NCBI RefSeq assembly: GCF_003008425.1
Contig: NZ_PXOQ01000009.1
Location: 69,501-133,500 of the forward strand
From: Aurantibacter aestuarii
GTDB taxonomy: Bacteria > Bacteroidota > Bacteroidia > Flavobacteriales > Flavobacteriaceae
Direction of reading: 5' to 3'
Length of the DNA stretch: 64,000 bases
A model generated the notes under the pieces. It searched no databases and was not told the origin of the DNA. It worked only from the letters and a program-made list of their open reading frames with translations. Within the stretch, counting starts at the first letter, position 1; every line of letters starts with the position of its first letter. A program made the position numbers and the translations under genes. Below, piece after piece: positions 19,125-32,851 of the stretch.

Positions 19125-20816
19125 ATGGCTGACGATAAAAAAATAATTTTCTCAATGACTGGCGTTACCAAAACGTTCAAGTCGGCTAACACACCTGTAT
19201 TAAAAAACATTTATTTAAGTTTCTTCTACGGAGCTAAAATTGGAATTTTAGGTTTAAATGGTTCAGGTAAATCCACTTTACTTAAAATTATAGCGGGAAT
19301 AGATAAGAATTTTCAGGGAGATGTGACTTCCGATAAGGAGTTCACTACAGGTTATCTAGAGCAGGAACCAGAATTAGATTCGGAAAAAACCGTTTTGGAA
19401 GTGGTTAAAGAAGGAGCGGCAGCAACGGTTGCAATTCTTGATGAATACAACAAAATTAATGACATGTTTGGGTTAGAGGAAGTTTATTCTGACGCCGACA
19501 AAATGGATAAATTAATGGCACGTCAAGCCGTTTTACAAGACGAAATTGATGCTGCTAACGCATGGGAATTAGATACTAAGCTGGAAATTGCTATGGATGC
19601 CTTACGTACACCAGAAGGCGATAAGAAAATTGGAGTGCTTTCTGGAGGAGAAAAACGTCGTGTGGCATTATGTCGTTTATTATTACAAGAACCAGATGTG
19701 TTATTACTAGATGAGCCTACTAACCACTTAGATGCAGAATCTGTACATTGGTTAGAGCAACATTTAGCACAATATAAAGGAACTGTAATAGCAGTAACGC
19801 ATGATAGATATTTCTTAGATAATATTGCAGGTTGGATTTTAGAATTGGATAGAGGAGAAGGTATTCCTTGGAAAGGAAACTATTCGTCTTGGTTAGACCA
19901 GAAGTCTAAGCGTATGGCTCAAGAATCTAAAACAGCATCTAAACGTCAAAAAACTTTAGAGCGAGAATTAGAATGGGTACAACAAGGCGCTAAAGGAAGA
20001 CAAACCAAGCAAAAGGCGCGTTTAAAGAATTACGATAAATTAATGAGTCAAGACCAGAAGCAGCTTGACGAGAAATTAGAAATTTATATTCCTAATGGTC
20101 CACGTTTGGGAACTAATGTCATTGAAGCGACTGGTGTAAGTAAAGCATTTGGCGATAAATTACTTTATGACGATTTAAACTTTAATTTGCCTCAAGCAGG
20201 AATAGTTGGTGTTATTGGTCCTAATGGTGCTGGTAAAACTACCATTTTCAAAATGATAATGGGCGAAGAAACACCAGATAAGGGCGAATTTAAAGTAGGG
20301 GAAACTGCTAAAATTGCTTATGTAGACCAGAGTCACTCAAATATTGATCCTGAAAAAACTATTTGGCAAAACTTTAGCGACGAGCAGGAGTTAATACTTA
20401 TGGGAGGAAAAGAAGTTAACTCTAGAGCTTATTTAAGCCGATTTAACTTCTCAGGTAGCGAGCAAAACAAAAAAGTAAGTTTGTTGTCTGGTGGTGAGCG
20501 TAACCGTTTGCATTTAGCTATGACGCTTAAGGAAGAAGGTAACGTATTACTTTTAGATGAGCCTACTAACGACTTAGATGTAAATACATTACGAGCTTTA
20601 GAGGAAGGTTTAGAAAACTTTGCAGGTTGTGCAGTAGTAATTTCTCACGACAGATGGTTTTTAGATCGTATTTGTACACATATTTTAGCTTTTGAAGGAA
20701 ATTCTGAAGTGTATTTCTTTGAAGGCGGCTATTCTGAATATGAAGAAAACAAGAAAAAACGTCTTGGTGGAGACCTAATGCCGAAGCGTATTAAATATAA
20801 GAAACTGGTTCGATAG
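19125..20816 (+). CDS. ettA: Energy-dependent translational throttle protein EttA (ABC-F ATPase)
   Basis: 563 residues, as expected for EttA. There are two ABC domains without membrane spans: Walker A GLNGSGKST and GPNGAGKTT, signatures LSGGEKRRVALC and LSGGERNRLHLA, and Walker B LLLDEPTNHLD and LLLDEPTNDLD. The linker between them is the charged P-site tRNA-interaction motif (about 255-310, with GAKGRQTKQKARLKNYDKL). EttA binds the ribosomal E site and gates entry into elongation according to the ATP/ADP ratio. The gene is monocistronic or shares a transcript with the small membrane protein upstream. Confidence 0.95.
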   Translation: MADDKKIIFSMTGVTKTFKSANTPVLKNIYLSFFYGAKIGILGLNGSGKSTLLKIIAGIDKNFQGDVTSDKEFTTGYLEQEPELDSEKTVLEVVKEGAAATVAILDEYNKINDMFGLEEVYSDADKMDKLMARQAVLQDEIDAANAWELDTKLEIAMDALRTPEGDKKIGVLSGGEKRRVALCRLLLQEPDVLLLDEPTNHLDAESVHWLEQHLAQYKGTVIAVTHDRYFLDNIAGWILELDRGEGIPWKGNYSSWLDQKSKRMAQESKTASKRQKTLERELEWVQQGAKGRQTKQKARLKNYDKLMSQDQKQLDEKLEIYIPNGPRLGTNVIEATGVSKAFGDKLLYDDLNFNLPQAGIVGVIGPNGAGKTTIFKMIMGEETPDKGEFKVGETAKIAYVDQSHSNIDPEKTIWQNFSDEQELILMGGKEVNSRAYLSRFNFSGSEQNKKVSLLSGGERNRLHLAMTLKEEGNVLLLDEPTNDLDVNTLRALEEGLENFAGCAVVISHDRWFLDRICTHILAFEGNSEVYFFEGGYSEYEENKKKRLGGDLMPKRIKYKKLVR

Positions 20817-20925: not shown

Positions 20926-21522
20926 TTATTTATGGAAATTAAAAAACGGTAACCATCTTAAAAGTTTTGGGTTATTACCAGCGTAGTTAATTAATCCAAT
21001 TTGTAGACCATGTAAATTTTCTGTTTGATTAAATAATGAAATTGAAATACCAGTCATTTGTTTAGAATAACTATTTCCTAATGCTATTATCAGTCCATTT
21101 AATTTTTCAGCATTAATTAGTACACCAACAGGAACTCCATTTATGCTTCGATTTTCTATATTTTTTTTAGGTGAACCAATTCCAAAACCTGCAAAAACAC
21201 CATTTAGTTTGTTTGAGTTAATCATGAAACTAGCAGTAAATCCATTGATTTTTTCTGCTCCATGATTTATTAGATTTATAGAAAAACCATTTATTTTATT
21301 AGTATGGGAAGAAAATGAATTTAATTGAACTCCATTCATTTGTTCTCCGGAAGCAACCAAATCCAACTTTACCCCATTATAAATATTTGGATTCCCAAAA
21401 GCTATACCTTTAGTGTCAGTACCAATTGAAAAATATTTTTTTTGTATAGTATCATTCTGAGTATAACTTTTTGTAGAAATAATTAATATTAATAATGTTA
21501 GAAAGTATTTGTTAAGTGCCAT
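20926..21522 (-). CDS. Secreted NG-repeat protein, possibly a small beta-structure protein
   Basis: 198 residues with a signal peptide (about 1-21, ending SYTQ). The mature part is made of seven or eight imperfect repeats of about 19-22 residues, each built around a turn (I/L/M)NG(V/F/L) followed by alternating hydrophobic residues, for example EQMNGVQLNSF, NKINGFSINLIN, EKINGFTASFM, NKLNGVFAGFG, EKLNGLIIALG. The alternation suggests beta strands, perhaps in a solenoid or barrel. It resembles the LA_2272-type surface repeat proteins, a tentative link. No sorting signal is visible. Function unknown. Confidence 0.75.
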   Translation of the reverse strand: MALNKYFLTLLILIISTKSYTQNDTIQKKYFSIGTDTKGIAFGNPNIYNGVKLDLVASGEQMNGVQLNSFSSHTNKINGFSINLINHGAEKINGFTASFMINSNKLNGVFAGFGIGSPKKNIENRSINGVPVGVLINAEKLNGLIIALGNSYSKQMTGISISLFNQTENLHGLQIGLINYAGNNPKLLRWLPFFNFHK

Positions 21523-21546: not shown

Positions 21547-22353
21547 CTACTTAACATCATCCTTATTAGGATACCAATCTAATTGTATAACTTTTACATT
21601 ATCGGTAGCAGAATTAACTAGCATTTTAAACTTTTCAACATTACTAAAACCATCGGTTCCTCTATAGTGGTATGGGTAAACTTCTTTTGGTTCAAAATCC
21701 ATAACCGCACTTGCAGCGCTTTCAACCGTCATGGTATATGGTAAATTCATGCAAATAAAAGCTTTATCAATACCTTTTAAGTTTCTCATTTCCGGGATGT
21801 CTTCAGTATCTCCAGAAATATAAATACGTTCTCCACCAAGTGTTAGGATATACCCATTTCCTCTGCCTTTTTCATGAAATTTTAAGGCTTCAGGACGTAA
21901 ATTATACATAGGTACCGCTTCAATATTAATACCATTAAGTTCTGTGGTATTTCCATTATTTAAAACAATACTATTAGCTTTTAAAGGATCTGGTAATTTT
22001 TCTTTTACAGCATTAGGCACAACTAATTTTACGCCTTCTGTATCTATAAAATCTAAAGTCTCTGGACTTAAATGGTCTCCGTGTATATCGGTTATTAAAA
22101 TTAAGCTCGGTTTTTTATAGCCCTTATAAAGTGCTTCACTACCATTAGGATCTACATAAATTACATGCTCACCATATTCTAAAATCAAACTGGCATGTTC
22201 AATGGGTTTAATTCGTAACTCAGGAGTTATTATTGTTTCTTCCTGTACTTCAATCTCTGTGGTTACAGTAGACTCAGGACGTCTTTCTTTTTCATCGGTT
22301 TTACATGAACTTACTATAGAAAGTAAAATCATGCTCATTATAAGGTTTTTCAT
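21547..22353 (-). CDS. Metallo-beta-lactamase-fold lipoprotein hydrolase
   Basis: 268 residues. The N-terminus MKNLIMSMILLSIVSSC is a lipoprotein signal. The catalytic block ILITDIHGDHLSPETLDFID is the HxHxDH zinc motif in the variant IHGDH seen in UlaG/UPF0173-like hydrolases; ERIYISGDTEDIPEM gives the later Asp ligand, and VYPYHYRGTDGF the last His. Such enzymes hydrolyse phosphodiesters or lactones; the substrate here is unknown. The lipid anchor puts it in the periplasm or outer membrane, unusual for UlaG itself, which is cytoplasmic. Confidence 0.85.
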   Translation of the reverse strand: MKNLIMSMILLSIVSSCKTDEKERRPESTVTTEIEVQEETIITPELRIKPIEHASLILEYGEHVIYVDPNGSEALYKGYKKPSLILITDIHGDHLSPETLDFIDTEGVKLVVPNAVKEKLPDPLKANSIVLNNGNTTELNGINIEAVPMYNLRPEALKFHEKGRGNGYILTLGGERIYISGDTEDIPEMRNLKGIDKAFICMNLPYTMTVESAASAVMDFEPKEVYPYHYRGTDGFSNVEKFKMLVNSATDNVKVIQLDWYPNKDDVK

Positions 22354-22517
22354 AGGATATAAGTTTTTTTAAAATTACAAATTTTAAGTTCAGAAATAAA
22401 TGATGTAACAATTTTATAACATTTGCTACCTATAAAGTGAAGTAATTTATTTCTAACTTCATTTTTTTTATCGAAATTACACCACATTAATATTAACCAA
22501 AAACTAAAAATATACTT

Positions 22518-23870
22518 ATGGCTGACGAATTTGATTTATTAGAAACTAATTCTAATCAGAAATCTGAAAAAGTAGACGTCAATTGGGGAAAAGCAATTGA
22601 TACCATGAAATCTAAATTATCTCAGGAAGACGATCCAGAACGTCGCCAGAAAATTCTTAATGCGACATTAGATGATGTGGTTGGAATGGCAGAAAAGGAT
22701 AGAACAAGTCTTTTAGATGCTATAAAAGATTTAACCGATTATCAAGATGAGGTTGGTATTTTATTCGAACGTTTTTCATCTTTAAATGCAAACGAGCAAA
22801 AAGTTATAGACGATGCTCAAAAAGCTTTAGAACGTGCTAAAGTAGAGTTAGAAGATGCTCAAAATAAACCAGATACCTGGTGGAATAACCTTTGGGGACG
22901 CAAAAGTAAAATTGCCAAAGCAGAACAGGCGTTAAAAGACGCAGAAAAAGTACGTGCTGGAGCCGACAATAAAGCAAAAGCAATGTTTCAGGAACGTATT
23001 GAAACTGCAGATGTACAAACGTTATTAAGCGAATTATCTTTTAAATCGCAAGCAGCCGTAACACGTCTAAAAAATCGTGAAGTAGAAATTAAAGAAGTAG
23101 AAGATAAGCTGCAAGTGGCTATTTTTGAAGCTTCTAAAAATCATACTAAGGCTTTAGAAAAGAAAAAAGAAGTTGAAGCTAAATTAGAAGAGCAATACGC
23201 TTTACTAAAACAAGCACGTCAAGCGTTAGAAGATGTGGTAGATAAGCAAAGTACAGCATATTCTGAAGCTATTGCAAAAGTAACTACAGTAGAGCAAAAA
23301 GTAGAAGAGCTAGAAGGTCTTAAAAATGCCTACACCACTTTGGCAGCTTCTAAAGACAGTTTTGTACACAAACATAACTTAACAATCAAAGTGTTAACCT
23401 CTTTACGTTCTAATTTACAAACCCATAGAGCCAAATTAAAGAGTGATACCGAAGAACGTTTAAAATATTACGATGGTTACGTGGTAGCATTAAAAGCACG
23501 TACAGACCAGGAATTTGCGGCTATATTAGAGCATTTAGGAGTTAAAACCGATGAGCATATTGGTGAAACTTTAGCGTCTATGCATAGTGCAAGTGCAAGA
23601 GCAAGACAGGAAATGATGGATAATATTCCGGTTCATGAAAAAGTAATGCAAGGTGTGTATAGCAGTTATGCAGAAGCTTTACAAGAAATTAGAACCAAAG
23701 ATGTCGATATCCAGAAAAATTTTGCAGACCGTTATGGCATCGATATGAAAGAAATTTTTGAAGATTATTACAAAGCAGATGCCAATGCACCTGCTGGAGA
23801 TGATGCTTCGGGAGCAGGAAATGGAGCACCAGCACCTAAAAAAGATGCAGGAGACGATTTATTAAGTTAA
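22518..23870 (+). CDS. Long coiled-coil cytoplasmic protein, first gene of the AAA+ cluster
   Basis: 450 residues with no signal peptide or membrane span. Residues 75-300 are mostly heptad-rich coiled coil (KALERAKVELEDAQNKP, KKKEVEAKLEEQYALLKQAR). A short Trp-rich interruption (TWWNNLWGR, about 120) may be a contact site. Residues 300-420 look helical and globular (RLKYYDGYVVALKARTDQEF), and the last 30 are a Gly/Ala/Asp-rich linker ending DDLLS. The helical layout vaguely recalls TelA-type tellurite-resistance proteins, but I see no diagnostic motif. It is followed after 283 bases by six co-directional genes including an AAA+ ATPase, and I infer that they work together. Function unknown. 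Confidence 0.8.
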   Translation: MADEFDLLETNSNQKSEKVDVNWGKAIDTMKSKLSQEDDPERRQKILNATLDDVVGMAEKDRTSLLDAIKDLTDYQDEVGILFERFSSLNANEQKVIDDAQKALERAKVELEDAQNKPDTWWNNLWGRKSKIAKAEQALKDAEKVRAGADNKAKAMFQERIETADVQTLLSELSFKSQAAVTRLKNREVEIKEVEDKLQVAIFEASKNHTKALEKKKEVEAKLEEQYALLKQARQALEDVVDKQSTAYSEAIAKVTTVEQKVEELEGLKNAYTTLAASKDSFVHKHNLTIKVLTSLRSNLQTHRAKLKSDTEERLKYYDGYVVALKARTDQEFAAILEHLGVKTDEHIGETLASMHSASARARQEMMDNIPVHEKVMQGVYSSYAEALQEIRTKDVDIQKNFADRYGIDMKEIFEDYYKADANAPAGDDASGAGNGAPAPKKDAGDDLLS

Positions 23871-24153
23871 ATCATAGAATCAGTCATTTCGAGATTTTTC
23901 GACCTTAGGAGAAAATAGTATCGAGAAGTCAATAAGTAATTAAAATAATAATTAGGGCGTTACCTACTTTTGCTTTTAAGGCAAAAGTAGGTCAGGCTTT
24001 CACTACTCACTTTTTTTAAAGCTACAAAAAGCTTTAAAAAAGAGTTCAGACAAACCGTTCAATCCTTAACGCAATTATGATTTTATTAAGTACATTTTAA
24101 TAAATCTATATAAAGCTAAAAACTATTGTTTAATAAAAAATAAAAAGTAGTGA
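23871..24153. other. Intergenic interval holding two repeat-like elements
   Basis: The 283-base gap has no ORF of note. Bases 23880-23930 carry a TTTCGAGA...CGAGAAGTC sequence, an inverted-repeat type I recall as common between genes in Bacteroidota. Bases 23953-24074 form the cloverleaf-like element described separately. The last 80 bases are AT rich and may hold the promoter for 24154, although I found no exact TAnnTTTG box. Confidence 0.5.
23953..24074. repeat. About 120-bp structured element with cloverleaf-like pairing
   Basis: The ends GCGTTA (23957-23962) and TAACGC (24067-24072) pair. Inside are two perfect hairpins: CCTACTTTTGC/GCAAAAGTAGG (around 23963-23991) and CTTTTTTTAAAGCT/AGCTTTAAAAAAG (around 24010-24042). 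A GTTCAATCC stretch near the 3' side (24057-24065) resembles a tRNA T-loop. From memory, similar GGGCGTT...CCTAACGC blocks are scattered in Flavobacteriaceae genomes, which I cannot check here. It may be a dispersed repeat or a structured RNA. It separates the first gene of the AAA+ cluster from the rest. Confidence 0.6.
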
Positions 24154-24717
24154 ATGGAAGATTTTTTGAAAAAATTAAAATTGCTTAAAGAAATTTCAAT
24201 TTCATTAAATACTCAAAGAAGTGAATTTGTGCCTGCATTGAAAAAACATGTAGATTCTGCAAAAATTAACAATCCTTTTTCAAGATTAGAAGATATATTC
24301 ACTTCAAGTAAAAACAGTTATAAAGGTATTGTAACATCTAGAGATTTTGAAATTAAAAAAAGACTACGCTTTGGAGATAGTAAATTTTCCGGAGCAAAAA
24401 TAACTGGAACTTTTCAAGATTTTGGAGATACACTAATTATTAAAGCAAAGGTAAATGCATGGAATAATTTTATGTTTGTCTTTTATGGCTTCGTTATTAT
24501 ATTCTATTTTGTTTTCGGAATATTAATGGTTCCAGAAATTATAAATTCTGGAGAAGATTTTTTTAGCGTAATTATAATTCCTTTTTTATTTATTCACGCA
24601 TTTTTTATGTTAGGAATGCCTTACTTTTTTATGAGAAGAAGTGTTTTACGAACGTTAAGAGAATTTGAAAAAGAAATTCATTTCATTCAGAGTAAAGAGG
24701 TTAATAATAAATTATGA
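24154..24717 (+). CDS. Membrane protein with two spans, AAA+ cluster gene 2
   Basis: 187 residues. A soluble N-terminal region of about 100 residues contains a beta-rich part (RLRFGDSKFSGAKITGTFQD). Two hydrophobic helices follow (about 109-131 FVFYGFVIIFYFVFGILMV and 140-162 IIIPFLFIHAFFMLGMPYFF) and then a basic C-terminus. I do not recognise the family. Its stop overlaps the next start (ATGA at 24714-24717), which implies coupled translation with 24714. It is more AT rich than its neighbours and comes straight after a repeat element, so it may have been inserted into an older cluster. Confidence 0.75.
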   Translation: MEDFLKKLKLLKEISISLNTQRSEFVPALKKHVDSAKINNPFSRLEDIFTSSKNSYKGIVTSRDFEIKKRLRFGDSKFSGAKITGTFQDFGDTLIIKAKVNAWNNFMFVFYGFVIIFYFVFGILMVPEIINSGEDFFSVIIIPFLFIHAFFMLGMPYFFMRRSVLRTLREFEKEIHFIQSKEVNNKL

Positions 24718-25754
24718 TTGTAACTCCATTAGATTCAGCAGTTTTAGACAGTAAAGAGCAGTATGTTTTTTATCATAAAAAAGTCGACTTTGCTCTTAAA
24801 GAACTTATTGTATCTGTGCAAAGACATAAATTGTGTACGCAACAAGAAGTGGTGTTTTTTAAGCAGTATTGCGATTTGTTACTGTATTCTATAGAAGCCA
24901 TGCGTATTAAGTATATGTATGATGATGAAGATAATATGAAAGTAGACTTAACCGAATCGGGTTTTCCTAATTATTTAGAGTTTCGCTACTTATATAATGA
25001 CTTATCTTTAAGAGATAATTACTTACATAAATTAAAAGATATTAGCCAGATACAAGACGAGTTTTTAGATATTTTACTTAAAAAGAAAGTTCCCATAAAG
25101 CGCGATCAATTATTTCAAGCGTCATCCATAGTTTATTATACATCAGTAAAACAGGAATATATTTTTAATCGCTTTGTACAAGGTAAACTGGTAGAAAGTG
25201 AAGATCAAGCTAAAGGACAATATTTAGTAAGCTGGAGTTTTTTCGATGTTTCTCAAAATCGACCTTTTGTGTGTTATATGTACTTCAATTACGATGGTAA
25301 GGATGTACAAAAAGACAAGCAAAACTTATACGACGCCTTAAATGCAGTTGCAGACAGAGAAATGAATTTAGATACTATGGCTTATGGTGTAGATAAACGT
25401 ATAAAAGATATTCATCCTACTTATATTAAGCGTATCGATTTAGGACCATTTCACAATGTATTTGCGAAAGATGAAAATGAAATGACGCATGCTATACTAG
25501 AAAGTATTGCTAAAAAAGAAATTCCGTTAGAATCTTACGCTTTAAGTTTAAAAATAGACGAAGTCAAAACCGGAAGTACCTTTTCAGAAGGTAGTTATTT
25601 TAACAAACAAACGCTTCAAAAATGGAATGATGTAGAAAGTTCTAAATATGTTTTTGCACCACATAGAATCATCCAATTATTATACAACAAAACTCCACAA
25701 TTAATGAATAAACTGGCAGAAATGCCTTTTGAGATAGCAAGTCTTAAGAATTAA
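24714..25754 (+). CDS. Soluble protein of unknown function, AAA+ cluster gene 3
   Basis: 346 residues without signal peptide or membrane span. The N-terminal half is helical (VDFALKELIVSVQRHKLCTQ and so on). The middle has a beta segment (YLVSWSFFDVSQNRPFVCYM), and the C-terminal third includes LDTMAYGVDKRIKDIHPTYI. No catalytic motif or known domain stands out. It overlaps the previous gene by four bases and precedes the AAA+ ATPase by 45 bases. By position it may be an adaptor or a regulator of the ATPase, which is inference only. Confidence 0.75.
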   Translation: MIVTPLDSAVLDSKEQYVFYHKKVDFALKELIVSVQRHKLCTQQEVVFFKQYCDLLLYSIEAMRIKYMYDDEDNMKVDLTESGFPNYLEFRYLYNDLSLRDNYLHKLKDISQIQDEFLDILLKKKVPIKRDQLFQASSIVYYTSVKQEYIFNRFVQGKLVESEDQAKGQYLVSWSFFDVSQNRPFVCYMYFNYDGKDVQKDKQNLYDALNAVADREMNLDTMAYGVDKRIKDIHPTYIKRIDLGPFHNVFAKDENEMTHAILESIAKKEIPLESYALSLKIDEVKTGSTFSEGSYFNKQTLQKWNDVESSKYVFAPHRIIQLLYNKTPQLMNKLAEMPFEIASLKN

Positions 25755-25799
25755 GTATTAAGTTTTCTATATCAATAAAATTTCAACTTATAAAAAAAT

Positions 25800-27755
25800 A
25801 TGCAGCACAACTCAACCTTTCCAATAAAACAAAACGAATTAGACACACTTCGTGACGAAGCTTCATCTTACTTAAAAAGTGTACAATGGGAGCAAAGTTC
25901 TCGAGCAAAACATAAAGATAAAGACGCTAAAGACACTTCAATTTTATTGTATTTGTCTAAAGCCAATAATGGCGGTAGTGCAGAAACGACTTCGGTTTCT
26001 AAAACCATACTTGCTTTAAAAAAACGGCTATTACCAGACTCTGTTGCAATTCCTTTATTTTTAAATCAGACACTTTACGCAGTTCAAGAAGGGTTAACTT
26101 TAGGGACATGGATAAAAGATTCATATTATGATGCTTCAGGTTTATCGAGCTTGATTCAAAATAAATCGGCTTTAGATACCAACGGAAAGCGAGAGTACGA
26201 AAGTAAAATGCATACAGGTACTGCTTTTATGTTATTTGCAATGTCGTATTATATTTTACATCAGTTAAAACCTTTTGCGTCGGATGATTTATCGGTAATG
26301 AAACAAAAATTTGCAGGCATACCAGAAGTCTCATTTTTATCGCCTTTAAAAGGATTTTCATGCGCTATGTTTTATTTCGATAAATATCTATCTCATCCAG
26401 AATTAATCAAAAGCGATAAAGATGTTATAGATTTTACGGTGGTGTATTTTGAAGCTTTAATAGCTGAAATTCAACTAAGAAAAAGCACTTTAGAATATAC
26501 CGCAACTATTGAAGATAGAACGTATAAACTAGAAAATTCCGATTTTTCAATCTCGGGATGGAACAATGTGTTTTCGGGTACTGCAAAAAGTGTAGAATTT
26601 AATAAAATTAAGTTTGAACAAATTGTAGGAAACCGCGATGCTAAACACTTTGCAAGACGTTTAACTGAACGTATGTTAAGTTACGATTTTGAAGCAAAGA
26701 AAAACCCGTTTCAGGAATTAGGCGGATTTATGCCTGTGTTTATGGGATACGGAATTCCAGGAACAGGAAAAAGTATGCTTATAGCTGCTATTGCTACTAA
26801 ATTGAAAGAGCATAGTGATGCTTTAGATATTCCATTTTTGTTTCATCCAATGCCAGACACTTTAATTAGTACGTTTCAAGGTGGTTCTGCCGAGAAAATG
26901 GTGGAGTGGATGAAGCCTATGCAAGACCCCACCAAACTTATTTTTGCACCTATTGATGATGCCGAAAATAATTTACAAGAGCGAACAGCGCAAGGTGTAT
27001 CGGCTGGTGTTAAAGAGGTTATTGGAGTCTTTTTACGTTATACCGAAGGTGCTTATGCGGTAAATTACGGAAATAGTTCTATAGGATTATTTACAAATTT
27101 ACCGGAAATGCTGGATAAAGCTGTTATTTCTCGTGTGCAAGGTCGTTTTAAAATTGATGGCGCAAGAACGGAACACGATTTCTTAGACCAAGATCATTTA
27201 TGGTGGCGCAAATTAGATCAAACTATGCCCGATTTTGTAAACATGCAATCGCCAGACAATTACACGTTTTTACAAGACCAAGGTTTAGCTAAAAACATGG
27301 GCGATATTTTAAGTAGCGTAGAAAAACCTACAGAAGCTCGTGTATTAGAAGCGTATGCAAAAGCCGAAAGTTTGCATAAAACCAATTCGCATTTGTTTTA
27401 TGCTGCGTTATATAAAGAAATTCAGGCTATTTTTCCATTCTTTTCATCAAGAGATGTTAGAAACATTCAAAGTGCGGTGTCGTTGCGTTTAACCGATTTT
27501 GATTTAGAAGAAGATTGGTTTGAAAATCCAGAAATTTATTTCAAACAAAATTACGAGACCAAGTTTAATATGCTTCAAGAAGTTATGAAGGCTAATATGA
27601 AAGGCTTAAACTTTTCGGATATTAGACGTCAAGAAGTGGTACGTTATTTAGATAATGTTGCTACTATAGCAGATACCGATTTCAAACGTAAAGTAGACGC
27701 TAGAATTAATCAATTACAAATTGAAACCAAAGCCAGAGAGCAGTTTGGGAAGTAA
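25800..27755 (+). CDS. AAA+ ATPase with variant Walker B, AAA+ cluster gene 4
   Basis: 651 residues. A non-catalytic N-terminal region of about 300 residues is followed by one AAA module. Walker A is GYGIPGTGKSM (about 317-327). Walker B is LIFAPIDDAENN, where the usual hhhDE is IDD, so the catalytic Glu is replaced by Asp. Sensor 1 and the arginine finger are visible in SSIGLFTNLPEMLDKAVISR followed by VQGRF, matching the TNxPxxLDxAxxxRxxxRF pattern of classical AAA proteins. There are no membrane spans, protease or nuclease domains. It probably remodels a protein partner encoded in the same cluster. The aromatic GGSAEKMVEWM after the P-loop may be the pore loop. Confidence 0.88.
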   Translation: MQHNSTFPIKQNELDTLRDEASSYLKSVQWEQSSRAKHKDKDAKDTSILLYLSKANNGGSAETTSVSKTILALKKRLLPDSVAIPLFLNQTLYAVQEGLTLGTWIKDSYYDASGLSSLIQNKSALDTNGKREYESKMHTGTAFMLFAMSYYILHQLKPFASDDLSVMKQKFAGIPEVSFLSPLKGFSCAMFYFDKYLSHPELIKSDKDVIDFTVVYFEALIAEIQLRKSTLEYTATIEDRTYKLENSDFSISGWNNVFSGTAKSVEFNKIKFEQIVGNRDAKHFARRLTERMLSYDFEAKKNPFQELGGFMPVFMGYGIPGTGKSMLIAAIATKLKEHSDALDIPFLFHPMPDTLISTFQGGSAEKMVEWMKPMQDPTKLIFAPIDDAENNLQERTAQGVSAGVKEVIGVFLRYTEGAYAVNYGNSSIGLFTNLPEMLDKAVISRVQGRFKIDGARTEHDFLDQDHLWWRKLDQTMPDFVNMQSPDNYTFLQDQGLAKNMGDILSSVEKPTEARVLEAYAKAESLHKTNSHLFYAALYKEIQAIFPFFSSRDVRNIQSAVSLRLTDFDLEEDWFENPEIYFKQNYETKFNMLQEVMKANMKGLNFSDIRRQEVVRYLDNVATIADTDFKRKVDARINQLQIETKAREQFGK

Positions 27756-27776
27756 TACTTAGGATACTATTGTTTT

Positions 27777-29015
27777 ATGCAAAAACTTAAAGACGCCAAT
27801 TTATATAATAATGAGCTCATTCCTATTAGTGGGAAATTAGTTGAGCGCTATAATGAGTGCTTAATAAAACTTGGCTTCACACCAACTAAACTTACCAGTT
27901 TCCATATTGATGGTATGGGCTGGAGCCCTGAGATTGCTATAGAAAAAGATAATAGTGCGTACCTAAATAATGGAGAAGCCAACTTACATGGTATATTAAT
28001 TTCACCTTTACAACATCGTAAACCTGTTTTTGAGCCATTTCATACCTTCGATAGAGATATGATGCAAGACGTATTTAGAATTCATGGCGATAAAATAAAA
28101 GATATTACTAGAGATTGTGCTATTTGTATCGATTTTGACCAATTTATAGATGCTTTTTATGAGCCTTTAGATGTTTTAAAATACAAAACAGTAGATATTA
28201 GTTTTCATTTAATAAACGATTTAGAAAACAAACAAAAAGAGCAACGCCGGTTAATTGAAACATTTAAAGAAGGACATCATTTTATAGATGAAAAACTACA
28301 TGCTAAATTATTAGAATCTGCTAACACCTATGGAGATTTAAGAGATAGAGATTTAAGTTTACATAGTCTCACTTTTACAACGGAATCGTTTTTTACTAAA
28401 GCATTTGGCGGCGTTTATGTACTTCGAGATTTTATAACACCTATTATAGTTTTTAAAGATCTTAACTGGTATAAAGAAGCTATAAAAGATACATTACATG
28501 ATGTGTTGATTTTTCATATGCAGCAACCAGAATTAATAGAAAAGTTAACAGACCATACCATTATTTCTTGCGATTTAGAAAAAGTAACTCAAGACGAGCG
28601 TTACGACCGTATTAAAAAGTTTGAACTAATTTCAGCTATAAAAGAAGCTTCACATGCTAAAAAAGATATTTTAAACGATCCTTTATTGTTTAAAAGCTAC
28701 TTAAATAAACTGGATATAGAATCTCGAAAACATGTCATGTCTGTAGAACTATATCTGGAAAAAATAGAAATCAGTAATCAATATAAAATTGCCGATTTAA
28801 TTAAAGACGACCTATATTTTGCCCTGCACGAACCACATTCATCTTTAACAGTAAACCAAAAAGATTTGATTTGGAAATTACTTACAGATATTTCACCTAA
28901 AGATGTTTTGCACTTGTATTGGTACGATAAAGCTCAATTTTACAAAACCTATGCGACTTGGGATGACGGTTTTAAAGATTGGGTCATAGAAATAATTAGT
29001 AACAAAATTGCGTAA
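27777..29015 (+). CDS. Soluble protein of unknown function, AAA+ cluster gene 5
   Basis: 412 residues, no signal peptide or membrane helix. It contains an N-terminal domain (IDGMGWSPEIAIEKDNSAYL, HGILISPLQHRKPVFEPFHT) and a helical C-terminal half (IKKFELISAIKEASHAKKDI). I do not recognise the domain; a DUF assignment may exist. It starts 22 bases after the ATPase gene, so it is surely in the same transcript. The length and mixed alpha/beta content suggest a full enzyme or a scaffold, but no catalytic signature is visible. Confidence 0.78.
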   Translation: MQKLKDANLYNNELIPISGKLVERYNECLIKLGFTPTKLTSFHIDGMGWSPEIAIEKDNSAYLNNGEANLHGILISPLQHRKPVFEPFHTFDRDMMQDVFRIHGDKIKDITRDCAICIDFDQFIDAFYEPLDVLKYKTVDISFHLINDLENKQKEQRRLIETFKEGHHFIDEKLHAKLLESANTYGDLRDRDLSLHSLTFTTESFFTKAFGGVYVLRDFITPIIVFKDLNWYKEAIKDTLHDVLIFHMQQPELIEKLTDHTIISCDLEKVTQDERYDRIKKFELISAIKEASHAKKDILNDPLLFKSYLNKLDIESRKHVMSVELYLEKIEISNQYKIADLIKDDLYFALHEPHSSLTVNQKDLIWKLLTDISPKDVLHLYWYDKAQFYKTYATWDDGFKDWVIEIISNKIA

Positions 29016-29043
29016 CTTTAGACGTATATAACAAATAAAAACG

Positions 29044-29568
29044 ATGACTTTAGAATTAATCATATTTATAGCAGCTATTCTTTTCGGAATCTTACTGTAC
29101 TGGAGAGAATCTAAAAGCAATAAAATATATCGCACTTTAAATAAAATAATGTACTCTAAAGAGTTACAAATGTCCCCACATAGTACAAAAGGGTTTATTT
29201 ATGAGCAGAATTTTTTAATGCGACTGGTTTATATTTCATTATTATTTATTGTAGCCATATTAATTTCAAAATTATTTTTACCAATAGAAATTGCTACAAT
29301 CCAGCTATTTGTGTCTTCAATTGTGGGAACTTTAATTGGAACGTATCTCGCCGGATTTATTTTAAAATCTTCTAAAGTCATTGAAGCTCAAAGTGAAACC
29401 TTAGAAGATGTTGTGCAAAATACTTTAAATAAAGGGAAAGATGTTTTTGAAGATTTAAAGAACAAAGACAATAAAGCTATAGAAGTTGCTAAAGAAGAAA
29501 TAAAAGAAGAACCAGAAGTAGAGAAAAAGTCTGCCAGAGAACGTTTAAAGGATAAAGGATTAATGTAA
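29044..29568 (+). CDS. Membrane protein with a charged C-terminal tail, AAA+ cluster gene 6
   Basis: 174 residues. A helix at 3-20 (LELIIFIAAILFGILLYW), two more at about 61-80 and 86-108 (VYISLLFIVAILISKLF, LFVSSIVGTLIGTYLAGFIL), then a Glu/Lys-rich coiled tail (115-174). The tail would be cytosolic and could bind the coiled-coil protein encoded at 22518. There is no known family motif. It lies 28 bases after the preceding gene. Confidence 0.75.
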   Translation: MTLELIIFIAAILFGILLYWRESKSNKIYRTLNKIMYSKELQMSPHSTKGFIYEQNFLMRLVYISLLFIVAILISKLFLPIEIATIQLFVSSIVGTLIGTYLAGFILKSSKVIEAQSETLEDVVQNTLNKGKDVFEDLKNKDNKAIEVAKEEIKEEPEVEKKSARERLKDKGLM

Positions 29569-29606
29569 ATCTAAATTTATATTGTTATTTATTTAATTAA
29601 ATTTCT

Positions 29607-29634
29607 AAAGCTAATAGCAAACGGCTAAAAGCTA
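29607..29634. repeat. Four 7-bp tandem repeats, nnnGC(T/A)A
   Basis: Units read AAAGCTA, ATAGCAA, ACGGCTA, AAAGCTA in the 79-base gap between cluster genes 6 and 7. The 7-bp period equals that of the CAGT-type arrays at 20825 and 56515, although the core differs. Confidence 0.55.
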
Positions 29635-29647
29635 AAATCACAAAACC

Positions 29648-31342
29648 ATGATAAAAAACTATTGGAATAAAGGAGGCAAACAAAAAGGAATAACTATTCT
29701 TGTGACTATTGTTATTATTGCCTTATTGTTTTTTTTAAGAGACGACTATCAGCCAGCCTTACTGTTTTTTAGAAAATTTATTTTCATCATTTTATTAAGC
29801 GGTCTTATTTTGTTTTTTGGTTTAAGATGGTTCCGGAAATCGGCTTCAATATTAAGACGAGTGGTTATACTTATTAGCTTAATTATCTTTTTTGGACTGC
29901 TTTATATTTTAGGTTGGCAGGTTAAATTGTATGACTACATGAAAACTTATAATGTGTTTAACGATTTAAATAAAGTTGAAATAAATGAATTGCCGCTAAC
30001 TCAAAATGAACGTATTCAACCCTTAAGAAATATTTTCTCTATGGCTAATGAAAGTGTAGGAGAAACCAAAGATGTGTCTTTACCACATTTGGTGCGAATA
30101 GATACCACAAACCAGTGGACTATGGCTATCCAGCCATCTGAAAAATATGTGATGCAGCGCTTAAATGATAATACCGAGGAAGTTTTTGCCGTATCCAGTA
30201 CCACGCCATTTCCTCGTTTTTCAAGTGAAAATAGAATTCCTGTTACATTTTCTATTGGAGAATCTTTAAAATGGAGCCGAAACACTTATAATGCGGTTGT
30301 ACAACGTTTTAATTTGTGGCAACTCTTTAATTACGAGCCAAGCGATACCTATTACATGAAAAACGATAAAGGCGCCTGGGTACAAGTCGTAAGTTTAATT
30401 AAATGGAAAGGATTTTTCTTTCCATATCCAAGTTTTGGTGGTGTTATGGTTATAGATAATGGGGAACATGATTTTAACGATTATTTGGAACGTGTTACTA
30501 TTGGAAAAGGAACATACATTTCTCCTGAAGAAATGAAGAATCATCCTTATTTAACGCGACAAAATACCTTGTCTGAAAAAGTATCTCAATTACAAGCCGA
30601 ATCTCTTAAATTTTTAGGAGGCTTTAGCGACCCTTTGCCATGGAATATGGAAACCGCAGTAAAAATTCCAAATTTACCAGACGACCAGAATCAGCAACCC
30701 TTTGTAACCGATTTTAATTTTGAAGATACTAAAATTGATGCCTATTCAGGGTTATATCATTGGTTTGGGTTAGAACCGGTAGGAGATGAGCGCACCAGTT
30801 TAACCTTTAGTGTGTTTATTCCAGCAGACGGAACCGATAAGTTATATTATTACGATCATGCGTCTAAAAAACAAGGTTATGCAGGCGTTTCGGCAATGCC
30901 TTTAAAAGTGATTGAATCCAGAAAAGAGTATGATTGGTCGGTAAATAAACCCGTAGAGTTTAGACCTTACATTAAAAATTTAGCAGGTAGAAAGCGTTTA
31001 TTTTTCTTAGGAACCATTTCTTCTGTGCGCGATGGAAGTTCAAAATTTGATGGCTCTGCAACACCAGATTTAACGTTAATAGATAGCGAATACAGAGATG
31101 TGGTGTGGATTGATGCAAAACACCCGAGTAAATGGGAAAAGACGGTTTATGACCAGTTAAATGAAGCTTGGCGTGCAAGTGAAGGCATTGGAGAATACTT
31201 TAATGAAGAAGAAAAGTTATTAGAAAAAGCGGAAACCATTTTAGATTCTGTAAGACGTATTCCTGCTGTAAATTCTAATAATGAAGAGATTTTAAGGCTT
31301 CAGAAGAAAATTGACTCTATAAAAATATTAGAAAGCAAATAA
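29648..31342 (+). CDS. Large membrane-anchored protein of unknown function, AAA+ cluster gene 7
   Basis: 564 residues. Three N-terminal hydrophobic helices (about 14-31, 38-57 and 70-90) are followed by about 470 residues of extracytoplasmic-looking sequence with mixed beta content (KYVMQRLNDNTEEVFAVSS, TYYMKNDKGAWVQVVSLIKW, FFPYPSFGGVMVIDNGE) and a charged, helical C-terminus. I do not recognise the domain. As the only protein in the cluster with a large soluble part beyond membrane helices, it may be the outward-facing component. A terminator follows at 31359. Confidence 0.78.
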   Translation: MIKNYWNKGGKQKGITILVTIVIIALLFFLRDDYQPALLFFRKFIFIILLSGLILFFGLRWFRKSASILRRVVILISLIIFFGLLYILGWQVKLYDYMKTYNVFNDLNKVEINELPLTQNERIQPLRNIFSMANESVGETKDVSLPHLVRIDTTNQWTMAIQPSEKYVMQRLNDNTEEVFAVSSTTPFPRFSSENRIPVTFSIGESLKWSRNTYNAVVQRFNLWQLFNYEPSDTYYMKNDKGAWVQVVSLIKWKGFFFPYPSFGGVMVIDNGEHDFNDYLERVTIGKGTYISPEEMKNHPYLTRQNTLSEKVSQLQAESLKFLGGFSDPLPWNMETAVKIPNLPDDQNQQPFVTDFNFEDTKIDAYSGLYHWFGLEPVGDERTSLTFSVFIPADGTDKLYYYDHASKKQGYAGVSAMPLKVIESRKEYDWSVNKPVEFRPYIKNLAGRKRLFFLGTISSVRDGSSKFDGSATPDLTLIDSEYRDVVWIDAKHPSKWEKTVYDQLNEAWRASEGIGEYFNEEEKLLEKAETILDSVRRIPAVNSNNEEILRLQKKIDSIKILESK

Positions 31343-31358
31343 AAAGATAAAGCGGATA

Positions 31359-31390
31359 AAAAAAATCAAGTCTAATAGACTTGATTTTTT
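31359..31390. terminator. Bidirectional Rho-independent terminator at the end of the AAA+ cluster
   Basis: AAAAAATCAAGTCT pairs with AGACTTGATTTTTT around AATA-type loop bases. It lies between convergent genes and can stop transcription from both sides. Confidence 0.9.
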
Positions 31391-31393
31391 TAT

Positions 31394-32851
31394 TTAAAAT
31401 TCTGTATTGCAACCTTCTTCGGTTTCGCAGCCAAATAAGCTCTTTTCCATTATGAGCTTAGAAACTCCTTCAGGAAGCATTTCTTGCCAACCATCTTCTC
31501 CGTTAGAAATCATTTTTAATACTTTTCTGGAGAATACTACTAAGCTTTCCTCATTAACGTCTTCAATATCTATAACTTTTCCGTTATATTTAAAGAATTT
31601 GTAAAGCTCTTTCATTCTTGGGTGCACCTTCACATTATCACTTGTAGTAAGTGTACCATCATCATTTTTCATTGGATATAAGTAAACTCTTAAATCTTTA
31701 AAGAATAACTTACCAAAAGCTTCCAGAATTCCTCCACTTAAGTGTGTGTAATATTTCTGGTCAAAAATATCTACTAAATTATTAACGCCCATAGCTAAGC
31801 CCATACGACTCTTGGTGTATTGTGAGAAGTATTCTACTAACTTATAGTATTCCTGGAAATTGGATATAAGGACTGTTTGCCCTAAAGAACATAATAAACG
31901 CGCTCTATCCATAAAATCCTGTTCATCAATTTCTCCTTCAGCTCGTAGGTTTGATAACGTAATTTCAAAAATTACCTGAGTATTGGCTTCATCAACCTTG
32001 TTTTCATTAATAAACATATCATAAGATTTCTTATACATGTCCATATTAACATTGGTAACCGGTCTAAAGCTACCTCTTAAGGCTAAAATGTTTTTCTTAT
32101 AAAGAACACGTGCTGGTAAAACGTTATTTCCGTCTGGAGCAAACATTACGGCATCTGTCATCCCATTTTTTACCAGTTGTAAACTCATTAGACGATTATC
32201 TACATCTTCAAATACTGGTCCCGAGAAGTTAATGGTATCTATTTCTAACTGATCTTTATCTAAATGGTCGTATAAATATTTTAGTAATTTTTTAGGCTGA
32301 TTGTATTTGTAATAAGCACCATAAATAAGGTTAGTGCCTAAAATACCTAAGGTTTCTTGTTGTAATCTGGCATCATTTTCTTTAAAACGAATATGAAGTA
32401 TTATTTCATTATAAGCTTCATTAGGATCTATTTGATATTTAATTCCAACCCAACCATGACCTTTATATTTTTTTGCAAAATCTATAGTAGCCACAGTATT
32501 GGCATAACTAAAAAAGAATTTATTCGGATGTTCCTCACGACTTAAACGCTGCTCAATAAGATTAATTTCATGAGTTAGCATTTTTCTTAATCGCGCCTCA
32601 GTTACATATCGTTTATCGTTTTCAATACCATAAATGGCATCACTAAAGGCTTTGTCATAAGCAGACATGGCTTTTGCAATAGTACCAGAAGCACCTCCAG
32701 CTCTAAAAAACTGCCTAACAGTTTCTTGACCAGCTCCAATTTCGGCAAAGGTTCCGTAAATATTTTCATTTAAATTAATACGTAATGCTTTGTCCTTTAT
32801 TGAAGGGATGTTTTCAAATGCTTTATCGCCTTTTAATGTGATTTCTTCCAT
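31394..32851 (-). CDS. Conserved protein of unknown function (about 485 residues)
   Basis: 485 residues, soluble, start ATG 32851. Highly patterned blocks include YGTFAEIGAGQETVRQFFRA, GGASGTIAKAMSAYDKAFSD, EEHPNKFFFSYANTVATIDF and FSGPVFEDVDNRLMSLQLVK. From memory, very similar proteins occur widely in Bacteroidota and in some other phyla. Some database entries call them nicotinate-nucleotide adenylyltransferase or TonB-dependent receptor. I see neither an adenylyltransferase HxGH motif nor a signal peptide or barrel, so I would not adopt either name. The GAGQE segment resembles, but is not, a Rossmann loop. The cysteine-rich end (FGCETEEGCNTEF) is notable. It is divergent from the MBL-fold gene. 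Confidence 0.8.
   Translation of the reverse strand: MEEITLKGDKAFENIPSIKDKALRINLNENIYGTFAEIGAGQETVRQFFRAGGASGTIAKAMSAYDKAFSDAIYGIENDKRYVTEARLRKMLTHEINLIEQRLSREEHPNKFFFSYANTVATIDFAKKYKGHGWVGIKYQIDPNEAYNEIILHIRFKENDARLQQETLGILGTNLIYGAYYKYNQPKKLLKYLYDHLDKDQLEIDTINFSGPVFEDVDNRLMSLQLVKNGMTDAVMFAPDGNNVLPARVLYKKNILALRGSFRPVTNVNMDMYKKSYDMFINENKVDEANTQVIFEITLSNLRAEGEIDEQDFMDRARLLCSLGQTVLISNFQEYYKLVEYFSQYTKSRMGLAMGVNNLVDIFDQKYYTHLSGGILEAFGKLFFKDLRVYLYPMKNDDGTLTTSDNVKVHPRMKELYKFFKYNGKVIDIEDVNEESLVVFSRKVLKMISNGEDGWQEMLPEGVSKLIMEKSLFGCETEEGCNTEF

Follow-up and report, generated by a model that had tools for sequence, protein, structure and literature searches.

Do seven adjacent genes of the flavobacterium Aurantibacter aestuarii form one unit, and what might such a unit do? 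We addressed this question in a stretch of 64,000 nucleotides (contig NZ_PXOQ01000009.1, positions 69,501 to 133,500; hereafter the window), in which a preliminary description had noted seven co-directional genes and read them as an envelope-associated remodelling machine with an AAA+ motor. The seven open reading frames (ORFs) were found as described, all in one direction within window positions 22518–31342 and encoding proteins of 450, 187, 346, 651, 412, 174 and 564 amino acids (aa), here called g1 to g7. The idea of a seven-gene unit did not survive comparison with relatives: the core consists of only four genes, g1, g3, g4 and g5, with g2 as an accessory gene and g6 and g7 as lineage-specific membrane partners. 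The four genes constitute one conserved, co-inherited system in which the AAA+ pore motifs are intact. Within the libraries that we searched and the open literature, the system as a whole, as distinct from its AAA+ fold, is apparently undescribed.

Four conserved and co-inherited genes

We compared 40 Flavobacteriaceae genomes that carry g4, using stretches of 18–20 kb around g4 and tblastn at an E-value of 1e-4. Matches to g1, g3, g4, g5, g6 and g7 were present in 39, 39, 40, 39, 38 and 38 of the 40 loci, respectively (the g4 count is complete by construction, the loci having been chosen by g4), on one strand and in one order. This shared order bore out the preliminary description, which had staked its proposal beforehand on the genes being kept together in relatives. 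No match to g2 was detected at the same threshold in these loci, to which the search for g2 was confined. All four core genes occurred together in 38/40 loci, and the cluster was split in loci L089 and L091. Protein identity over the 40 loci was 75–90% for g1, 67–88% for g4, 58–81% for g7, 41–78% for g3, 42–70% for g5 and 40–63% for g6, making g1 the best-kept protein.

Across sampled Flavobacteriaceae genomes, g4 was present in 114/397, spread over 76/237 genera at 67–88% identity. It gave a single match in 113 genomes and two partial matches, on separate contigs, in one fragmented assembly. The coiled-coil gene g1 was present in 112 of 395 sampled genomes, and the presence or absence of g1 and g4 was identical throughout these 395, with 112 genomes carrying both and 283 neither. 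Two g4-positive genomes, evidently outside this sample, also carry g1 (G576, locus L079; G577, locus L237, whose stretch stops within g1). Both genes are absent from a 92% complete genome sampled from the same genus as the window; hence, the system is not fixed by genus.

We also followed the genes in genomes where the cluster is broken, in whole-genome searches from which g6 was left out. In the locus stretches, g5–g7 are missing after g4 in genome G280, and g6–g7 are missing after g4 in genome G460. On one contig of G280, g4, g5 and g7 lie at 1.83, 2.58 and 2.68 Mb, respectively, with g5 and g7 as single copies, and G460 carries a single g7 on a contig other than that of g4. Two genomes of one genus (G408 and G561) have g1 and g4 on different contigs, with g5 and g7 present; these assemblies are fragmented, such that the separation may partly reflect assembly. 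That the parts are retained even when unlinked favours a single function over chance proximity.

The core is also found outside Bacteroidota. The DUF6638 profile, which identifies g5, matched 5/395 genomes sampled across Bacteroidota, all five of them Flavobacteriaceae. In a tblastn search of 72,556 plasmid records, g4 and g5 each matched 10 records, and the two sets were identical: four Sinorhizobium, one Shinella, one Rhizobium and four Vibrio. The gene order in Sinorhizobium and Vibrio is coiled coil, g3, ATPase, DUF6638. The window proteins were compared by BLASTP with one set of proteins from Sinorhizobium and one from Vibrio; the better E-values of the two were 2e-8 for g1, 5e-15 for g3, 3e-66 for g4 (from Vibrio; 2e-55 from Sinorhizobium) and 7e-31 for g5. 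Because coiled coils can match spuriously, we compared g1 and g3 by separately built Flavobacteriaceae and proteobacterial profiles, alphaproteobacterial in the case of g3, and hhalign returned probabilities of 97.3 and 99.5, respectively. Another g1 profile comparison, with a probability of 100, is not independent, as its alignment included two proteobacterial rows.

We then considered two sets of alphaproteobacterial loci. The first, here called Rhizobiales-type, comprises the best 80 of at least 564 contig stretches encoding a g4 relative. Homologues of g1, g3, g4 and g5 together with a DUF2333 gene are all present in 78/80 of these loci, and the two exceptions come from contigs that are 3.9 and 5.2 kb long. 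The titles of the 80 are Rhizobiales or other alphaproteobacterial, except for that of L157, a contig titled as an Arenimonas metagenome-assembled genome, whose copy of the cluster is typical of Rhizobiales and which is probably mis-binned. For the second set, DUF6638 was detected in 20/299 sampled genomes from the phylum of a Sinorhizobium genome (G931), and 14 of these 20 regions were examined. By tblastn, the order g1-g3-g4-g5 was found in all 14 loci, followed downstream by a DUF1523 gene in 11 (with a gene for an 88-aa protein in between in 10) and by DUF2333 in 3. We refer to the 11 loci with DUF1523 after the core as the DUF1523 group and suspect that they represent Rhodobacterales. Trees built from 37 sequences for each of g1, g3 and g4 gave the same blocks, namely Flavobacteriaceae, Rhizobiales, DUF1523 group and Vibrio; the branches between blocks are long and were flagged by the program, and we draw no conclusion on transfer.

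Two of the Vibrio loci (L098 and L099) lie on plasmids of ~0.9 Mb typed as non-mobilizable, each with the four-gene core directly before the plasmid's own mfd gene. The core is also present in Sinorhizobium meliloti. We presume that SMc02729–SMc02734 are the copies of strain 1021; this presumed mapping was given no weight. The same applies to a single mention of SMc02733, in the available part of a report on a ChvI binding screen, within a table of DNA fragments (PMC3687685).

Because the four genes keep their order in three lineages and g1 and g4 are present or absent together in all 395 genomes, their conservation and co-occurrence exceed chance. Thus, four families without an assigned joint role behave as one system, keeping their order in distant bacteria and persisting together even where the operon is broken. 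As S. meliloti is genetically tractable and carries the core, the function of the system is directly testable.

Properties of the core proteins

The preliminary description had found no defence or secretion system that it could name, and library scans agree: matches in Pfam, NCBIfam, PHROGs and PADLOC assign the seven proteins to none. Above the Pfam cut-offs there were only AAA in g4 and DUF6638 in g5, and no NCBIfam match exceeded its cut-off. The best PHROGs and PADLOC matches, for which no cut-offs exist, were to the AAA domain of g4 (E 1.6e-5 and 1.4e-5, respectively). Weak SMC, JetC and CdvC hits were treated as coiled-coil or AAA background, and sub-threshold FtsH hits of g4 reflect only its AAA domain. 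No MoxR or VWA family was detected in the seven proteins in Pfam or NCBIfam at E <= 1, which speaks against membership in the MoxR-VWA systems.

The single AAA+ ATPase of the preliminary description is g4, which matches PF00004 (Pfam AAA) over residues 317–452 with 35.9 bits against a cut-off of 21.2; its N-terminal 300 residues have no Pfam match. The protein contains a Walker A motif (GYGIPGTGKS), a pore loop (STFQGGS), a Walker B motif (ending in IDD), a sensor-1 Asn and two conserved Arg, the motifs being given the roles usual in AAA+ ATPases. We examined 135 g4 homologues (41 flavobacterial, 84 Rhizobiales-type, 9 from the DUF1523 group and 1 from Vibrio). The DUF1523 group entered this set with clean g4 ORFs, which leaves out L207 and L211; L212 (DUF2333 type) and L099 (the second Vibrio locus) were likewise excluded. 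All 135 have the Walker A motif, the sensor-1 Asn and a pore loop of aromatic type ([FY]QG), and with these threading-motor motifs the AAA+ motor of the preliminary description stands. The Walker B pair, usually Asp-Glu, is Asp-Asp in 135/135, placing Asp at the position of the catalytic Glu. The best matches of a g4 profile in the PDB were VCP-like ATPases, Cdc48, proteasomal ATPases, Vps4 and FtsH. From these sequence features, g4 is classified as a classical AAA protein with an atypical catalytic residue and without a narrower assignment.

The preliminary description had counted two unassigned soluble proteins in the cluster. For g3 this holds, with no family in Pfam, NCBIfam, PHROGs or PADLOC scans and no Pfam family common to more than 1 of 46 homologues. 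The other, g5, is a member of DUF6638 (PF20343), a family without assigned function, and scores 111.6 bits where the cut-off is 27 (E 5.7e-32). An AlphaFold2 model of g5 is confident, with a predicted local distance difference test (pLDDT) score of 92 and a predicted template modelling (pTM) score of 0.87. Foldseek matched this model to no PDB entry at E <= 0.001 (best 0.46), and the best VIA-align match had a Z-score of 4.1 over 40 residues, essentially the stretch 148–192; the absence of structural matches to a model does not prove a new fold. In a search limited to open papers, none contained the word DUF6638.

The coiled-coil protein g1 is helical, with predicted helices of up to 94 residues. 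Flavobacterial copies have a variable acidic linker followed by a conserved C-terminus, [DE]-[DE]-L-L-[SG], in 38/39 sequences (the exception is L078), and proteobacterial homologues are ~360 aa long and lack the DDLLS tail. CofC matches 11/42 g1 sequences (best E 9.6e-5), with the window copy at 16.6 bits, under the cut-off of 22. No PspA_IM30 (PF04012) hit was found by Pfam in g1 at E <= 1 or in 42 aligned g1 sequences at E <= 0.01. TelA had been suggested by length and by eye, and was rejected: PF05816 gave no hit to g1, and hhalign gave a probability of 0.08% in a comparison with only two TelA sequences. The TelA/XpaC clusters resemble the locus in having a coiled-coil protein of ~370–390 aa and, in 1/2 loci, a neighbour with hydrophobic N-terminal helices; they differ in that no core protein has a significant match in either TelA locus.

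The AlphaFold2 model of g1 is poor (pLDDT 64, pTM 0.43). Its best structural matches were MakA (Z 13.3), SmhB and AhlB (both 12.7) and the F-BAR protein FCHO2 (10.8), and the best Foldseek match was AhlC (E 1.4e-3). These matches could be taken to indicate that g1 is a helical protein that inserts into or bends membranes, with a ClyA/MakA-like or F-BAR-like shape, and that g4 extracts or recycles it. We consider this improbable, as the tool itself notes that long helical bundles reach Z-scores near 13 as background, the model they rest on is of low confidence, and the g1 sequence has no similarity to PDB entries (the best, at E 0.028, is a ribosomal protein). No ESCRT-III, PspA or Vipp1 entry was among the 50 matches listed in either search, which, with a model this weak, excludes nothing.

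Membrane partners, insertions and possible function

The membrane genes beside the core differ by lineage: g6 and g7 in Flavobacteriaceae, DUF2333 in the Rhizobiales-type loci, and the 88-aa protein with DUF1523 in the DUF1523 group. The charged tail of g6 ends in KSARERLKDKGLM, and the tail motif KSARxRLKDKG is near-invariant behind a variable linker, with a strict pattern in 37/38 sequences (the exception is L081) and a looser one in 38/38. By the positive-inside rule, the g6 tail is predicted to be cytosolic and the ~470-aa soluble part of g7 periplasmic. Short conserved C-terminal motifs behind variable linkers, as in g1 and g6, are an arrangement typical of docking peptides and may serve as such. 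One sequence each of DUF2333, DUF1523 and the 88-aa protein has two hydrophobic segments by hydropathy. In pairwise comparisons of g7 (an alignment of 19 sequences), DUF2333 and DUF1523, no profile similarity was detected between the partners of different lineages, and the envelope part therefore seems exchangeable. DUF2333 adjoins amidase and NUDIX genes in a type VI secretion locus in the available part of one report (PMC5256989), and other open papers retrieved for DUF2333, DUF1523 or Pfam accessions concern other subjects, judging by their titles.

A link to the envelope is suggested by the neighbours of the core in Flavobacteriaceae, in Rhizobiales and in the DUF1523 group, which are membrane proteins with a part predicted to be periplasmic. 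We infer envelope-associated remodelling, as the preliminary description had, and no homology shows remodelling as such. Our tentative proposal, plausible though short of probable, has g1 as the target of g4 at the inner membrane; g3 and g5 would be adaptors, and a membrane protein would connect the activity to the periplasm. In outline, g4 would form an AAA+ ring at the cytosolic face of the inner membrane. Through its aromatic pore loop, g4 would engage the helical g1, in Flavobacteriaceae perhaps via the flexible tail that ends in DDLLS, and would unfold or take apart a scaffold or polymer made of g1. With Asp in place of the Walker B Glu, ATP hydrolysis may be slow or gated, and g3 and g5 would serve g4 as adaptors or regulators. 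In Flavobacteriaceae, the machine would be tethered to the membrane by the cytosolic tail of g6, and g7 would carry its action into the periplasm, a role that DUF2333, or the 88-aa protein with DUF1523, may fill in Alphaproteobacteria. Overall, the machine would use ATP to remodel or maintain some structure of the envelope, by analogy with the action of Vps4 on ESCRT-III and with an independent origin. The stronger version of this proposal, an independently arisen functional counterpart of ESCRT-III/Vps4 in which a membrane-remodelling AAA+ machine works on a polymer-forming g1 through exchangeable partners reaching the periplasm, is unlikely as it stands. It would add g3 and DUF6638 as two families for which our searches gave no relative of solved structure.

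The likeness to Vps4/ESCRT-III and PspA/Vipp1 lies in a classical AAA+ protein with an aromatic pore loop encoded beside a long helical protein, with membrane partners nearby; the differences are that g1 has no PspA profile match and g4 no match to the MIT domain. Bacterial PspA/Vipp1 genes are occasionally neighbours of AAA+ genes, and PspA or Snf7 proteins encoded beside AAA+ ATPases have been described as probably functioning in ATP-dependent remodelling (PMC11237479). The available part of this survey does not mention the present gene set and contains no counterpart of g3 or DUF6638. Sequence tests oppose simple membership in the PspA/ESCRT-III, TelA, IetAS or MoxR-VWA systems and remain compatible with a similar way of working.

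Several observations weigh against the proposal that g4 remodels the envelope through g1. When g1 was tested as a PspA protein, hhalign returned probabilities of 1.2% and 2.5%. A Pfam scan of g4 at E <= 1 gave only AAA, NPHP3_N and NACHT matches and no MIT domain, which if divergent could escape a sequence scan. The Walker B Asp could mean that g4 is a weakly active ATPase. Docking through the g1 tail is not general, since the proteobacterial homologues lack it, and the poor g1 model, with its background-level matches, offers no structural help. The absence of profile similarity among g7, DUF2333 and DUF1523 also counts here, as do the two Vibrio loci, in which mfd rather than a membrane gene directly follows DUF6638, disfavouring a universal membrane partner. 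Finally, the system is dispensable in Flavobacteriaceae, since ~70% of the sampled genomes lack it.

We also weighed other explanations. The four core proteins might form a cytosolic polymer or scaffold, cytoskeleton-like or in protein quality control, with no direct role at the envelope and with the membrane genes as incidental operon neighbours. This would suit the variation of the membrane genes by lineage, their absence directly downstream of the core in the two Vibrio loci, and the lack of hydrophobic segments in the window's four core proteins. It sits poorly with the retention of g7 in G280 and G460 though away from g4, and with the regular occurrence after DUF6638 of DUF2333 (78/80 Rhizobiales-type loci) or DUF1523 (11/11 loci, 10 via the 88-aa protein), and we judge it unlikely. 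Somewhat less doubtful, though still on the unlikely side, is an AAA+ chaperone-type complex for maturation or signalling, in which g4 with g3 and g5 would activate a membrane or periplasmic client (g7, DUF2333 or DUF1523) and g1 would be a spacer or tether. Membrane proteins adjoin g5 in three lineages, and an invariant Walker B Asp suits a slow conformational switch; however, a mere spacer would not be expected to be the best-kept protein of the locus, and the would-be clients share no profile similarity between lineages.

If the proposal that g4 remodels the envelope through g1 is true, bacteria own an envelope-remodelling machine that is powered by ATP and stands apart from the PspA/ESCRT-III family. 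Should the mechanism fail, DUF6638 is still grouped with three partners, the core is split from the accessory genes, and residues to mutate are named.

We also examined the intergenic slot between g4 and g5, scoring it as occupied when the gap was at least 300 bp and contained a co-directional ORF of at least 80 aa, some of which may be spurious in GC-rich genomes. The slot was occupied in 18/39 flavobacterial, 39/80 Rhizobiales-type and 4/6 DUF1523-group loci, the g5 coordinates of the last six being hand-set and approximate. Insertions recur at this position in two phyla, making it a hot spot with differing cargo (L057–L096, L101–L180 and L201–L208). By Pfam, the cargo includes Nudix, amidohydrolase/SnoaL and CheB-CheR-PAS proteins in Flavobacteriaceae, a DUF559 endonuclease, an Xre/ParE-like pair and PIN in Rhizobiales, and AbiJ_NTD4 and DUF3825 in the DUF1523 group; several representatives have no Pfam family. 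The CheB-CheR protein, found in one flavobacterium (L058:7662–12131, minus strand), has 1490 aa and several PAS domains. A Band_7/SPFH-type protein, possibly another membrane link, is encoded between g1 and g3 in two rhizobial loci (L139:7642–8580 and L153:7800–8717; the domain was checked in L139). In G577 (L237), ~4 kb of extra DNA separate g3 (end 11390) from g4 (start 7326), showing that insertions also occur outside the g4-g5 slot. We read the slot genes as tolerated insertions, and the window's g2 as a further case at a different site.

Slot cargo of this kind could give the locus the look of a defence system, and the cluster might be an anti-phage or toxin-antitoxin type system. The DUF559, Xre/ParE-like, PIN and AbiJ_NTD4 genes would fit, as would the patchy presence in the family (114/397), and the AAA domain of g4 is weakly similar to IetA of the anti-phage system IetAS (E 1.4e-5). 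IetAS pairs its AAA gene with a subtilisin-type protease; the seven proteins, to which the scan was limited, include no protease family above cut-off, and the cluster occurs as one copy per genome with g1 and g4 all-or-none. Further, none of the seven proteins has a known effector domain that exceeds its cut-off, g4 has no match among phage records at E 1e-5, nearly every positive genome has a single copy, and the slot genes differ from genome to genome. The same ABC-ATPase gene lies upstream in 19/40 loci, as expected of a stable chromosomal locus. We therefore regard a defence function as very improbable. The DUF6638 loci that Rhizobiales, Vibrio and the DUF1523 group carry are also among the closest known systems and share the four-gene order and homologous g1, g3, g4 and g5 with the window; they differ in their membrane neighbours, DUF2333 or the 88-aa protein with DUF1523 in place of g6 and g7, and in a shorter g1 without the acidic tail.

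Layout of the window locus

The positions of the seven genes and of two hairpins are listed in Table 1. The ATGA overlap of g2 and g3 noted in the preliminary description was found at 24714–24717. Gaps of 22–79 bases had been given for the other genes; from g3 to g7 the distances are indeed short (45, 21, 28 and 79 bp), whereas g1 and g2 are separated by 283 bp. This longer gap contains an imperfect hairpin repeat with similar DNA at at least four further sites of the same genome, which looks like a dispersed element of the repetitive extragenic palindromic (REP) type.

Table 1. Features of the g1–g7 locus, in window coordinates.
Feature	Position	Strand	Description	Basis
g1	22518–23870	+	core; coiled coil, 450 aa, no transmembrane segment	ORF
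Hairpin repeat	23951–24110	.	imperfect; inside g1-g2 gap, outside the system	fold -42.8 kcal/mol
g2	24154–24717	+	accessory; 187-aa membrane protein, hydrophobic segments within 108–126 and 129–157	ORF, hydropathy
g3	24714–25754	+	core; soluble, 346 aa	ORF; in 39/40 loci
g4	25800–27755	+	core; 651-aa classical AAA+ ATPase	PF00004 match, motifs
g5	27777–29015	+	core; 412-aa DUF6638 protein	PF20343 match
g6	29044–29568	+	Flavobacteriaceae partner; 174 aa, hydrophobic segments 1–19, 61–79, 88–106	hydropathy
g7	29648–31342	+	Flavobacteriaceae partner; 564 aa, N-terminal hydrophobic segments 12–30, 38–56, 72–90	hydropathy
Terminal hairpin	31354–31395	.	with flanking A- and T-tracts, between convergent genes, after g7	fold -15.5 kcal/mol

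The strong terminator that the preliminary description placed at the end of the cluster corresponds to the terminal hairpin with its T-run, probably a bidirectional terminator; a consensus terminator scan did not pick it, listing 5 sites where 4.8 are expected by chance. Neither the terminator nor the promoter scan of the window gave a signal above chance, and the element TAnnTTTG, which we take to be a Bacteroidota promoter element, is absent from 22300–22530. Upstream of the cluster, the minus strand encodes a 198-aa protein with short LNG/ING-type repeats (20926–21522), for which no match was found in the 40 related loci. Still farther upstream, at 19125–20816, lies a gene with two ATP-binding cassette (ABC) ATPase domains, presumably ABC-F-like; it is this gene whose upstream counterpart recurs in the 19 loci mentioned above, one copy being truncated by the end of the stretch.

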